Shown piece by piece: positions 18,974 to 22,292 of a stretch of DNA of 64,000 nucleotides. The position numbers and the translations under genes were made by a program. The stretch lies in NCBI GenBank assembly GCA_004010835.2, contig CP030868.2, positions 1,860,001 through 1,924,000 of the forward strand. The letters run 5' to 3'. Origin of the DNA: Oenococcus sp. UCMA 16435. Lineage in GTDB: Bacteria; Bacillota; Bacilli; Lactobacillales; Lactobacillaceae. The stretch's first letter is position 1. Each line of letters opens with the position of its first letter. Under the pieces are notes generated by a model that was not told the origin of the DNA, made no database searches, and saw nothing but the letters and a program-made list of their open reading frames with translations.

Positions 18974-19498
18974 TTAAATATTTATATGAATATCTCCATC
19001 GTCGAATCTGAAGTGACGACCAATTGAATCATTAACCATTTTGCTGATATAGTCGCCAAAATCGACATCGTTAAGATTTTTAGAAACTGTTTTCAACAGT
19101 CTTAGCAGTGTATCTTTTTCTTCTTCTGATAATCCAGCAAAAATTTCTTCGCTTAGATCATCGGCTTCGTCTTTTTTATTTTGCAGGAAAGCATGACCCT
19201 TTTTTGTTAATTTGATCAAGGTGATTCTTTTATCAACTTCGTCTGCGGTTCTTTCAACCAGTTTGTTTTCTTCCAACTTGTCTACGAGACCAGTGACGGA
19301 ACTTGGTCGAACATCGAGAATTTCGGCAATTTCGCCAACTGATAGGCCATCATATTTATCTAATAAATGCATTAAGCGGGCTTGGCCTCGGTGATGGCTT
19401 CGTTGTCCTTGGTGGCGGGGGCCGACCATCAAATAGAAGTTGGGATTCTTTGCCAGACCACCAATTGTCTTCATTAATTCATTTGTTACTTCCGACAT
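18974..19498 (-). CDS. MarR-family transcriptional regulator
   Basis: The 174-aa protein starts MSEVTNEL, where AAAGGAAA is upstream. It contains a winged helix: LSVGEIAEILDVRPSSVTGLVDKLEENKLVERTADEVDKRITLIKLTKKG. A Gly/His/Arg-rich insert (VGPRHQGQRSHHRGQARLMHLL) precedes it and a Asp/Ile-rich tail (RHFRFDDGDIHINI) follows. It probably represses its own operon with the downstream membrane protein. Confidence 0.85.
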   Translation of the reverse strand: MSEVTNELMKTIGGLAKNPNFYLMVGPRHQGQRSHHRGQARLMHLLDKYDGLSVGEIAEILDVRPSSVTGLVDKLEENKLVERTADEVDKRITLIKLTKKGHAFLQNKKDEADDLSEEIFAGLSEEEKDTLLRLLKTVSKNLNDVDFGDYISKMVNDSIGRHFRFDDGDIHINI

Positions 19499-19529
19499 AA
19501 TTTTTCCTTTCTTTTCTTTATTTTCATTA

Positions 19530-19559
19530 ACAATAGGATATTGTTTAGTAAATGTCAAT
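19530..19559 (-). promoter_or_regulatory. marR promoter with imperfect palindromic operator
   Basis: On the minus strand TTGACA (19558-19553), 17 nt and TATTGT (19535-19530) form a good promoter. Overlapping its -35 and spacer is the near-palindrome ATTGTTTAGTAAATGTCAAT (19540-19559), with TTTA/TAAA and ATTG/CAAT arms. It is a plausible MarR autoregulatory site (inference). Confidence 0.55.
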
Positions 19560-19618: not shown

Positions 19619-20653
19619 TTATTTTAATGGAACATCAACTTGCCAGCCATCTGGTCCTTTTTGATCACCATCTTGAATCCCGCTTAAGCGGTCGTATAGT
19701 TTTTGTGTGTAAGGACCAACTTCGGTTTCACTGTAGAAAACATGTTTATTTCTATTATGAGTAATTGAACCGACGGGAGAAATTACAGCTGCAGTTCCCA
19801 TTGCTCCGGCTTCGGAAAACTGATCCAAATCATAAATGCTAATGGACGTTTCTTCCGGTTCCATTCCAAAACTATCGGCAATTTGCAATAATGATTTTTT
19901 TGTAATTGATGGAAGAATTGAAGGTGACTTCGGTGTTTTAAACTTGCCATCCTTGGTGATCCCAAAAAAGTTTGCTCCGCCAAGTTCTTCAATGTTTTCA
20001 TGCAAACGCGGATCCAAGTAAACTACATCGGAGTAACCATTTTTATGGGCAAGCGAACCTGGTAGCAAACTCGCGGCATAGTTTCCGGAAACCTTTGATT
20101 GCCCGGTTCCACCATGGGCGGCACGATCGTAAGGGCTTGTTACGTATTCCGTTGGTTTCATGCCGCCTTTATAATATGGTCCAACTGGCGTAACCAAAAT
20201 ATGAAATTGAAATTTATCAGCCGGGTGAACACCGATTACTTCTCCGCTACCGATGATAAAGGGCCGAATATATAAAGTGGCTCCGGAGCCATATGGGGGA
20301 ACGAAATCTTGATTGGCTTTGACGACCATTTTAACTGCTTGCACAAAACGGTCTTCCGGAAAAGGAACCATCAACAAGCGCGTTGCTGAATTGTGCAAGC
20401 GCTTGGCATTCATATCTGGACGGAATAAATTGACTCCTCCGTCTTTTCGACGATAAGCTTTTAAACCTTCAAAAGCTTCCTGCCCATAATGAAGCACGTT
20501 AGCCGCTTCAGACATCTTTATCGTTGAATCGTTTGTCAACTTTCCTTCATCCCATTTTCCATCTCTGTACTCAGCATGAAAGCTATATGGCAAATCATAA
20601 TAATTAAAGCCTAAATTTGGCCAATCAAAATCTTCCGCTTTTGCTTTTTTCAT
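19619..20653 (-). CDS. ilvE: Branched-chain amino acid aminotransferase
   Basis: IlvE is a PLP class IV transaminase that interconverts Leu/Ile/Val with their 2-oxo acids using glutamate/2-oxoglutarate. The 344-aa protein has HYGQEAFEGLKAYRRKDG, LYIRPFIIGSG, the PLP lysine in GTGQSKVSGNYAASL, the ELGGANFFGI stretch and FSEAGAMGTAAVISPVGSI. AAAGGAG lies before the ATG. It is 37 bp downstream of the PfoR/EIIC-like gene with no terminator between, so both are under the upstream BCAA attenuator. Confidence 0.95.
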   Translation of the reverse strand: MKKAKAEDFDWPNLGFNYYDLPYSFHAEYRDGKWDEGKLTNDSTIKMSEAANVLHYGQEAFEGLKAYRRKDGGVNLFRPDMNAKRLHNSATRLLMVPFPEDRFVQAVKMVVKANQDFVPPYGSGATLYIRPFIIGSGEVIGVHPADKFQFHILVTPVGPYYKGGMKPTEYVTSPYDRAAHGGTGQSKVSGNYAASLLPGSLAHKNGYSDVVYLDPRLHENIEELGGANFFGITKDGKFKTPKSPSILPSITKKSLLQIADSFGMEPEETSISIYDLDQFSEAGAMGTAAVISPVGSITHNRNKHVFYSETEVGPYTQKLYDRLSGIQDGDQKGPDGWQVDVPLK

Positions 20654-20690: not shown

Positions 20691-21962
20691 TTAAACGACA
20701 TCCAAATGTAAATCGTTTTTCTTTGTTTTACCAGTGCTTTTTAGGAATTTGTACCAAACCCAGGAAATTATAACAGGGCCAACTAGGCCAAATATCAGCA
20801 TTGTGGCAAGACCTGACCACCCGTTTGAAAAACCGGAATTTGTTGGCATTGAAAGAATGTTAAGTGGTGCCGTAAATGAAGAAAAACCAAGACCGCCAAG
20901 AGTTGCTGGAACCTTAAATCCACCGACTGTCACGGCCAGCGACGCCATTAACATGGCGGAAATCATTGGACCGATAGCTGTTAAAGGCGATTTGATAATA
21001 TTTGGAAATTGAACTTTTGGTGTTATTAATCCTTGAGCTATATTAGCTCCAGGATCATTTTGATTAAAACTCATTGCTGTATAACCGGAAAACGCCGCAC
21101 AACAGCCGATTAATGCCGCACCAGCCGAGATTGGATCAAGATTGACCGCAACTGCCAGAGCTGCTGATGAAGCTGGTGTCATCAAGAACCAGAACCAGGC
21201 AAACGAGACAACCATTGCGCCAAGGACCGGATTGACTTTCATTGTATTCGCAAGATTTTCCGAAACCCAATTTAAGAATGGTGTTGTTACTGATGCTGCT
21301 GCCAGACCGATCAATGAACCGACCAACGTTGCACAAAAGGGAACAATGAACATATCCAAAGGTGTTTTTCCGGTCATCCACATGCCAATCAAAGCAGCTG
21401 CCAATCCAGCGATTACTGCTGAGACCGGTTGACCAACAGTTACAATTGTTGCTCCGGTTAACTGTGGCGCAACCCAGCCGGTAGCTGTTTTTGTTGCTTT
21501 TATTGTCGCTTCAGTGAAATAAATTGAATTAGCACCGACAGTTGCAGCGATCATTGCTGAAAAAGTTGTCAAAGTGGTTGAACGTAATTGAATTGCTATC
21601 CCGGCCCCAATCGCCGGAGCTAACAAATGTTGTCCAAGAATTCCGACCATTTGCAATGGTACCCAGTGGAGTAAATTGCCAGCCGTATTCAAAAGAATTG
21701 AAATCCCAAGAATAACCAAAACAGCATTCGAAATTCCTTGGCTAACTGTATAAACCCAATCGGAAATCTTCATTTTCTTTTCTGGTCGTGTCAATGGGCC
21801 AGATCCTGGTCTCAATTCTTCGGTTTGAGGCCGGTCATTTTTAAATTTAGCCGCTGCGGAAACGGCTGCTGTATATGCGGCACTGCGTTGTTCGGCTGTC
21901 ATAGAAGCTGGATCTTTATCGAATAGATTTTGTTCAGTTTCCGGGTGCTTCTTTGCTGTCAT
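20691..21962 (-). CDS. PfoR/PTS_EIIC_2-like polytopic membrane protein; candidate BCAA-linked transporter
   Basis: The 423-aa protein has a hydrophilic N-terminus (about 65 residues) and then about ten membrane segments rich in Gly/Ala/Ser. The pattern (SDWVYTVSQGISNAVLVILGI, GQHLLAPAIGAGIAIQL, MSFNQNDPGANIAQGLITPKVQFPNIIKSP) fits the PTS_EIIC_2/PfoR family, annotated variously as a EIIC-like or a toxin-regulator protein. There are no PTS IIA/IIB domains. It has a perfect AGGAGG. Its position behind a BCAA-type attenuator and in front of ilvE suggests transport of branched-chain amino or keto acids (inference). Confidence 0.8.
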   Translation of the reverse strand: MTAKKHPETEQNLFDKDPASMTAEQRSAAYTAAVSAAAKFKNDRPQTEELRPGSGPLTRPEKKMKISDWVYTVSQGISNAVLVILGISILLNTAGNLLHWVPLQMVGILGQHLLAPAIGAGIAIQLRSTTLTTFSAMIAATVGANSIYFTEATIKATKTATGWVAPQLTGATIVTVGQPVSAVIAGLAAALIGMWMTGKTPLDMFIVPFCATLVGSLIGLAAASVTTPFLNWVSENLANTMKVNPVLGAMVVSFAWFWFLMTPASSAALAVAVNLDPISAGAALIGCCAAFSGYTAMSFNQNDPGANIAQGLITPKVQFPNIIKSPLTAIGPMISAMLMASLAVTVGGFKVPATLGGLGFSSFTAPLNILSMPTNSGFSNGWSGLATMLIFGLVGPVIISWVWYKFLKSTGKTKKNDLHLDVV

Positions 21963-21974
21963 CTTTCCTCCTTA

Positions 21975-22019
21975 AAATAAAAACCTGTTTCAGTTAGTTC
22001 AACTAACTGAAACAGGTTT
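21975..22019 (-). terminator. Attenuator terminator upstream of the PfoR-like/ilvE operon
   Basis: Two perfect 19-nt arms (21981-21999 and 22001-22019) around a single central base form a very stable hairpin. On the minus strand it is followed by a TTTTTATTTT-type tract and then at once by AGGAGG of the gene. A strong intrinsic terminator inside the 5' leader is the hallmark of transcription attenuation. Confidence 0.9.
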
Positions 22020-22077
22020 AAAAATTTTCAACCATGTCAGCCAGCTATCTTTCGACGGCTGACAAAATGATCAGTCG

Positions 22078-22155
22078 TCATTGCGTAATTAGCAACACGA
22101 TGCTGATCAAAATAATTGATTCACTCATATTCATTTGTTGACAATTATTTAACAT
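22078..22155 (-). CDS. BCAA-rich leader peptide
   Basis: This is a 25-codon ORF about 16 nt into the leader. Residues 8-25 read MNMSESIILISIVLLITQ: nine of the ten residues 14-23 are Ile, Leu or Val (5 Ile, 3 Leu, 1 Val). A weak GAGAG site precedes the first ATG (22155); ATGs at 22134 and 22128 are in the same frame. The stop falls inside the pause hairpin. It is too short for most gene finders. Ribosome stalling at these codons would report low charged tRNA-Ile/Leu/Val. Confidence 0.75.
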   Translation of the reverse strand: MLNNCQQMNMSESIILISIVLLITQ

Positions 22156-22177
22156 GTACTCTCTTGAGTTGTAATTT

Positions 22178-22206
22178 AGATTACTCGGCAAAATTTGGAT
22201 TGTCAA
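22178..22206 (-). promoter_or_regulatory. Promoter of the attenuated PfoR-like/ilvE operon
   Basis: On the minus strand TTGACA (22206-22201), 17 nt, TAATCT (22183-22178). The start is expected near 22171. Confidence 0.8.
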
Positions 22207-22233
22207 GCGTTTTTAATTTTGTAATACAAATGT

Positions 22234-22270
22234 AATTTTACATTTTTTATAAAATAAAAAATGTAAAATT
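22234..22270. repeat. 37-bp A/T palindrome in a divergent intergenic region
   Basis: Perfect 17-nt arms (22234-22250 and 22254-22270) flank a 3-nt centre. An overlapping palindrome ATGTAA-TT-TTACAT lies at 22230-22243. TGTAA half-sites recur at least three times between 22220 and 22270. It sits between the attenuated operon's promoter and the small membrane protein gene. It could be a dimeric repressor operator; no regulator can be named. Confidence 0.6.
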
Positions 22271-22292
22271 AATAGGACAGGAGGGATAAAAA

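Follow-up and report, generated by a model that had tools for sequence, protein, structure and literature searches.

Results

The permease-ilvE locus and its leader

The region analysed here, which we refer to as the window, is a stretch of 64,000 nucleotides from the genome of Oenococcus sp. UCMA 16435. On its minus strand lies a permease gene, followed in the same direction by ilvE as the next gene and preceded by a leader of several distinct parts. The permease matches its Pfam family at 221.6 bits against a cut-off of 28.9, a match that does not indicate a substrate; it matched no NCBIfam model at E 0.001, and a search of PDB sequences at E 0.01 returned nothing related to it. The features of the locus, all on the minus strand and listed from the promoter side, are the following.

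22178 to 22206, minus strand: candidate promoter TTGACA-17-TAATCT (TTGACA at 22206-22201, TAATCT at 22183-22178), read in the sequence
22159 to 22165, minus strand: weak putative Shine-Dalgarno sequence of the leader ORF, AAGAGAG, from sequence and inference
22078 to 22155, minus strand: leader ORF, 25 codons and TGA, MLNNCQQMNMSESIILISIVLLITQ, conserved in other Oenococcus and, in type, in the permease clade
22087 to 22116, minus strand: putative control codons, residues 14-23 (I I L I S I V L L I), from the ORF translation
22092 to 22109, minus strand: segment 1, inside the control codons (fold; swap test for 1:2, p 0.0002)
22068 to 22084, minus strand: segment 2, around and after the stop codon, partner of 1 or 3 (fold, swap test)
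22053 to 22064, minus strand: segment 3, partner of 2 (ON) or 4 (OFF) (fold, swap test)
22030 to 22045, minus strand: segment 4, predicted antiterminator strand, partner of 3 (OFF) or 5 (ON) (swap test, alignment)
22002 to 22019, minus strand: segment 5, terminator 5′ arm (swap test, alignment, terminator scan)
21981 to 21998, minus strand: segment 6, terminator 3′ arm (terminator scan, paired changes over 27 leaders)
21974 to 21980, minus strand: T-rich terminator tail, running into the Shine-Dalgarno sequence (sequence, terminator scan)
21967 to 21973, minus strand: Shine-Dalgarno sequence of the permease gene, AAGGAGG (sequence)
20691 to 21962, minus strand: permease gene, 423 aa, Pfam PF13303 PTS_EIIC_2 (1.8e-65)
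19619 to 20653, minus strand: ilvE, branched-chain amino acid aminotransferase, 344 aa (TIGR01123, 399 bits, cut-off 250)

The elements that a first-pass annotation had named at this site can be read directly. The promoter hexamers stand as it described them; the −10 box is weak, with TAATCT matching TATAAT at 3 of 6 positions, and the pair is absent from the output of our promoter scan, while other Oenococcus leaders have similar hexamers at identical spacing. Residues 14-23 of the leader ORF do include nine Ile, Leu or Val among ten. Both hairpins that had been pointed out are likewise present, one joining the control codons (22109-22092) to sequence just beyond the stop (22084-22068) and the other a perfect 8-bp hairpin, TGTCAGCC/GGCTGACA, between 22064-22057 and 22042-22035. 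The terminator ending at the Shine-Dalgarno sequence was found at 22019-21981, between the leader ORF and the permease gene, with 18 pairs (19-nt arms with the loop closed) and a tail running into AAGGAGG; the scan returned this one terminator against 0.1 expected from shuffles. Immediately 5′ of the −35 box, at 22212-22271, there are also AT-rich inverted repeats, one of them perfect with 18-nt arms, which are a possible operator or terminator.

The leader as a whole folds at −67.7 kcal/mol, compared to −39.9 (sd 4.0) for shuffled sequences (z −6.9; 0 of 200 shuffles were equally low). The run of branched-chain residues is by itself within chance expectation: when ATG ORFs of 12-40 codons were counted with no Shine-Dalgarno filter, at least nine Ile, Leu or Val in ten residues occurred in 1 of 519 such ORFs in the window, and in 5 ORFs in total across 40 shuffled windows. 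As the run alone is not rare, it is conservation and the pattern of pairing that decide the case.

Conservation across Oenococcus and the permease family

The genus genomes that we searched include those of O. oeni DSM 20252 and O. kitaharae CRBO2176. In five of the seven, those with a close permease homologue, the 25-codon leader ORF is kept without insertions or deletions, and changes within the run stay among Ile, Leu and Val; in the other two (65-68% complete) no close permease homologue was found. Beyond the genus, 131 of 301 family genomes had permease matches at E 1e-30 or better. We scanned the flanks of 110 loci by script (five from Oenococcus, then 25 and 80 picked among the listed permease matches) and built a tree of 116 permease genes, leaving out L004, a near-copy of L003, and predicted products shorter than 330 aa. 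Leader labels on this tree are rule-based except at L060, L116 and six loci labelled ‘IlvLike’, which were assigned by hand, L116 being confirmed as Leu-type; L115_1, L119_0 and L119_1 are labelled ‘none’ on the tree, but the flank scan shows leaders at all three, and at L119_1 the stretch after the leader enters unknown bases.

One clade, with support of 100, has a leader ORF containing Ile together with a terminator at all 38 of its permeases, such that nowhere in it is the terminator kept without the leader ORF. At least six of the ten residues of the run are Ile, Leu or Val in 37 of the 38 leaders, with L044 at five of ten. Considering the last ten residues of 39 leaders, Ile occurs in every one, Val in 31 and Leu in 21; judged from these residues, Ile is the constant putative signal and Val and Leu are variable ones. 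A second clade of 17 paralogues, which occur as tandem copies in five loci, is divided into a branch of 12 with Leu-type leaders (FALLLSLL, VLLLNLLL and others) and a branch of five with Ile-type leaders. The remaining permease clades have a different leader rich in Ile, Leu and Val at six loci (recognised by eye), a single T-box (L060), or, in the flank scan by script and by eye, neither a leader nor a T-box. In several leaderless relatives (L047, L048, L051, L061, L071, L077 and L095), visual inspection showed a promoter with repeated ATTTTAATC/ATTCTAAT-like motifs behind it, which are perhaps operator sites.

Co-variation of five alternative pairings

The six segments allow five pairings, and we evaluated each with an alignment-free swap test in which the duplex energy of cognate segments was compared with that of non-cognate segments (25 leaders less than 88% alike, 5000 permutations). 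All five (1:2, 2:3, 3:4, 4:5 and 5:6) were stronger between cognate segments at p 0.0002, the permutation floor, with values that ignore phylogeny and have four unpredicted pairings as their sole control; these four gave p 0.35 for 2:5, 0.31 for 1:3, 0.15 for 2:4 and 0.88 for 3:5. Terminators were set by reading the sequence at L020, L025, L027, L041, L045, L046, L055, L056, L057 and L062. The script's choice of 3:4 hairpin looks wrong at L055 and L057, of which L055 was kept in the test.

A MAFFT alignment of 27 leaders gave a further view of the same helices. In the terminator, 11 of 12 consensus pairs had changed on both sides. The 4:5 helix was paired in 83.6% of cells, falling to 21-42% when the helix was slid by 1-3 columns; 0 of 500 shuffles reached this level of pairing, and 1 of 500 matched its covariation score. 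Pairs changed on both sides were not unusual for this helix (73 of 500 shuffles reached the same number, and two slid helices equalled or exceeded it), nor were further pair types (148 of 500). RNAalifold recovered the terminator alone from this alignment. In it, 12-23 of the 27 leaders pair at the columns of 2:3 and 13-24 at those of 3:4, partly through loops that are misaligned; as the alignment is poor there, the swap test was used in place of fixed columns for these two helices. Together with the fold of the leader and the retention of its ORF in five Oenococcus genomes, the co-variation of all five pairings supports the original suggestion that the site is a branched-chain amino acid attenuator.

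A proposed six-segment switch

From the computed ORF and its conservation, the five pairings with their co-variation, and the neighbouring genes, we infer that the leader is transcribed and translated and that it switches by ribosome stalling. We are highly confident in reading it as a ribosome-mediated transcription attenuator that has six RNA segments, like that of the his operon, and that would switch on Ile/Leu/Val salvage when charged tRNA is low. An OFF set of hairpins (1:2, 3:4 and the terminator 5:6) would compete with an ON set (2:3 and the antiterminator 4:5). With charged Ile, Val and Leu tRNA plentiful, the ribosome would reach the stop codon and cover segments 1 and 2; 3:4 would then pair, the 5:6 terminator would form, and transcription would stop ahead of the permease gene. 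A ribosome stalled in the Ile, Val and Leu codons would instead cover segment 1 and leave 2:3 to pair, which would free segment 4 to pair with 5, so that no terminator forms and the permease gene and ilvE are transcribed. In an untranslated leader 1:2, 3:4 and 5:6 would all form, and the operon would be off. The first-pass annotation had recognised the terminator of this arrangement but named neither the antiterminator, formed by segment 4 with the terminator 5′ arm, nor the six-segment switch as a whole. It had also taken the 8-bp hairpin for a pause hairpin; this hairpin is best read as 3:4, which would hide the antiterminator strand.

We assessed this scheme by equilibrium folding of the RNA up to the just-made terminator 5′ arm, with a ribosome mask placed over varied stretches. 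In the window leader 4:5 had 12.6 pairs under stalling (mean over stall positions), compared with 6.5 when the ribosome was at the stop codon and 3.8 when the leader was untranslated; 2:3 pairs rose from 0 to 7.5 on stalling. Across 39 leaders the corresponding 4:5 means were 5.6, 3.6 and 2.1. Stalling gained more than one 4:5 pair in 21 of the 39, the window leader among them, and did not in 18. Three of these 18 (L003, L004 and L005) belong to the genus and are among the nearest relatives of the window; in them 4:5 is high even on release (11.0, 11.0 and 10.5 pairs stalled versus 10.2, 10.2 and 9.9 on release). At L019, L020 and L045, 3:4 prevailed at every ribosome position. These equilibrium models support the switch for the window leader and fall short of proof for the whole set.

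Alternative explanations

The terminator could in principle be a constitutive brake placed behind an ORF that encodes a functional small hydrophobic membrane peptide; the C-terminal half of the leader peptide is indeed hydrophobic, and small hydrophobic proteins are common. The composition of the peptide speaks against this, however: the last nine residues of 28 leaders comprise 114 Ile, 43 Val, 26 Leu, 3 Ala and 2 Met, with no Phe, Gly or Trp and the others mostly polar, and the N-terminal parts vary between genera. A plain brake would moreover have no need for co-variation of 2:3 and 4:5, nor for leaders rich in Leu at one paralogue and rich in Ile at another, and we consider this explanation highly improbable. 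The least probable of the alternatives, in our estimation, is that the signal is sensed by a T-box or another riboswitch, binding tRNA or a metabolite, and not by translation of the leader. T-boxes occur widely in the genus, and L060, a permease relative, carries one, but the window has no Rfam family at gathering score, the T-boxes of the 20 loci scanned with Rfam lie 3′ of the permease gene, and a T-box would not need the leader ORF and amino acid run that are conserved here.

It may also be postulated that the main control is exerted at the promoter by a DNA-binding regulator, acting at the inverted repeats at 22212-22271 or encoded by the MarR-type gene at 18974-19558, with the attenuator vestigial. 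The position of the perfect 18-nt repeat directly beside the −35 box, as well as the promoter-proximal motifs seen by eye at several leaderless relatives, would fit such a regulator; the co-variation seen in each of the five pairings speaks for an attenuator that is still under selection, and we regard its being vestigial as very unlikely. The two layers may well act together, by analogy with the ilv-leu operon of Listeria, on which CodY and an attenuator both act (PMC5864092, in part). We therefore retain the ribosome-mediated attenuator as the reading of this leader.

A probable salvage operon downstream of the predicted attenuator

In our scan of 110 loci, ilvE lies directly 3′ of the permease gene at the five Oenococcus loci and at 12 others. 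IlvE is able to aminate branched-chain 2-oxo acids, and the permease may carry either branched-chain amino acids or these 2-oxo acids. The most likely function of the operon is salvage, in which branched-chain amino acids or their 2-oxo acids would be taken up and the latter aminated by IlvE. The first-pass annotation had offered scavenging or catabolism; salvage fits better and catabolism is less likely, as attenuators of this kind respond to a shortage of the amino acid by switching on, and the logic here would activate the operon under starvation.

Related leaders elsewhere in the family

The window attenuator is not isolated, since further leaders rich in Ile, Leu and Val occur in the same genome, where they precede brnQ, ilvD, a gene for an MFS transporter and an ilvB-like gene. 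Both ilvD and ilvC are present in this genome; a search of six further genomes of the genus, of which two are 65-68% complete, found neither. We searched the genus and the 301 family genomes with a covariance model of the leader, R1, and read 42 places outside the known sites (40, plus two in the window’s own genome), selected from longer lists. As R1 includes the leader codons, the Ile codons of its matches are partly built in, but the downstream genes are not; 30 of the places had an Ile-type leader, one a Leu-type leader, three an aromatic-rich leader and eight none (L204, L206, L207, L212 and L215-L218).

The genes behind the 30 Ile-type leaders are brnQ-like in ten cases, of MFS type (metabolite/H+ symporter) in nine and hydratase-like in seven, with one leader each before ilvD, an OppA-like gene, a short PF13303-like ORF and a PTS gene. 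The single Leu-type leader precedes a PF13303 permease. Names were assigned by family scan at L184, L187 (BrnQ), L134, L191, L196 (MFS), L195, L200 and L201, and by visible similarity elsewhere. For BrnQ, L184 scored above the TIGR00796 cut-off and L187 matched PF05525; the hydratase-like genes of L134 and L185 fell below NCBIfam cut-offs with no Pfam match, and at L189 PF13303 was matched below its cut-off. The PTS gene, at L195, has EIIB, EIIC and EIIA domains and follows an Ile-type leader with a terminator. At L194, L205 and L211, aromatic-rich leader ORFs (IYYFAYFWR, NNNFFFKLLAI and NNNFFFNLN) with terminators stand before an apparent APC-type amino acid permease; their codons suggest that these are likely to be Phe/Tyr attenuators.

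Leader peptides and T-boxes

An Rfam scan of the whole window gave no match at gathering score, the T-box model RF00230 included, and in the window and the scanned loci no Rfam model matched these attenuators at that score. T-boxes themselves are numerous in the genus, with 13-17 matches per genome at E 0.001, most of them below gathering score, in the five genomes that are at least 98% complete. Five T-boxes reached gathering score in the 20 loci scanned, all of them 3′ of the permease gene. The T-box at L060:1809-2061 (minus strand) lies directly before a PF13303 permease; it scores 73.6 bits, below gathering score, and its specifier, read by eye, is CUC (Leu).

In the window’s genome a T-box at L134:13098-14219, with a specifier read as AUC (Ile), precedes a 2-oxopent-4-enoate hydratase-like gene that lies near an ilvB/ilvC/ilvA-like cluster. 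This gene is 50% identical to the hydratase-like gene that follows Ile-type leaders in relatives. The same hydratase-like gene is thus placed behind a T-box in one species and an unrelated kind of sensor, the leader peptide, in others, apparently for the same amino acid, which provides independent support for the Ile signal.

Discussion

The scheme proposed here follows that of the his operon attenuator of enteric bacteria, which has six segments, A-F. There too the OFF state is made of three consecutive hairpins (1:2, 3:4 and 5:6), the ON state of 2:3 and 4:5, and the position of the ribosome decides between them; the likeness is one of scheme, as the present case concerns a permease-ilvE operon, Ile, Val and Leu codons, and Lactobacillaceae.

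Leader attenuation of branched-chain amino acid biosynthesis has been predicted in L. lactis, C. glutamicum and streptococci, with experiments in S. aureus and Listeria (PMC6123439, PMC5794164 and PMC5864092, each in part). The rli60 leader of ilv-leu in Listeria monocytogenes is comparable as a Gram-positive branched-chain leader peptide with a terminator and antiterminator, there tested by mutation and with an Ile-auxotrophic E. coli as reporter host, but it is described with four segments and a 13-residue peptide and controls biosynthesis (PMC5864092, in part). The leucine-rich attenuator peptide of ilv-leu in Staphylococcus aureus similarly combines a leader rich in branched-chain residues with a terminator in a Gram-positive organism, but the operon is biosynthetic and the antiterminator proposed for it has the poly-U tail as its partner instead of the terminator 5′ arm (PMC5794164, in part). 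T-box leaders (RF00230) of branched-chain transporters and tRNA ligases also control transporters through tRNA charging; they bind tRNA directly and need no leader ORF, whereas a leader peptide takes their place here (PMC2494555, in part). Closer in one respect are the histidine leader peptides before hisS and hisZ in bacilli, which replace T-boxes in Firmicutes; those concern histidine and tRNA ligase genes, and that text contains neither ‘Leuconostoc’ nor ‘Oenococcus’ (PMC2965389, in part). Among the matches listed from the open-licence literature, none describes attenuation by a leader peptide for PF13303 permeases, or for either Oenococcus or Leuconostoc. Such attenuation is thus an established mechanism; what appears to be new is the present member, the regulon to which it belongs and the clue that it gives to the function of these permeases.

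A broader proposal, which we regard as evenly balanced between right and wrong, has two parts. PF13303 permeases, which are named as sugar PTS or PfoR proteins, would be dedicated permeases for branched-chain amino acids or for their 2-oxo acids (the latter supplied to IlvE), with Ile/Val- and Leu-type paralogues told apart by their leader codons; and Lactobacillaceae would have a salvage regulon of peptide attenuators (before permease-ilvE, brnQ, ilvD, MFS and hydratase-like genes, with aromatic-rich leaders before the APC-type permease) that is exchanged gene by gene with T-boxes. The leader codons, Ile/Val or Leu, would then predict what each PF13303 paralogue serves, a concrete and testable substrate class. 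Our results suggest that lactic acid bacteria control their salvage of amino acids partly through peptide attenuators, and they offer cases in which a T-box and a leader peptide stand before one gene in different species. In O. oeni the pathways for Ile, Leu and Val are incomplete and a model predicts a need for all three (PMC5372704, in part); given this predicted need, attenuator control would matter for the growth of this species in wine.

Two minor observations concern neighbouring material. In the window’s own genome, a longer leader rich in Ile, Leu and Val (MDTSNSYSNVKLLQNVIAIIILAIIIMRVCDLMPGLF) with a terminator-like hairpin lies 5′ of the ilvB-like gene (L134:10650-11060, minus strand); on visual comparison it is similar to those of L083, L085, L099, L101 and L106, with which it would form a second leader class. 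The permease of O. oeni DSM 20252 (L015:3001-4380) contains a tandem repeat, in frame and about 22 residues long (LDMFIVPFCATLVGSLVGLAAA), that is missing from the window copy.
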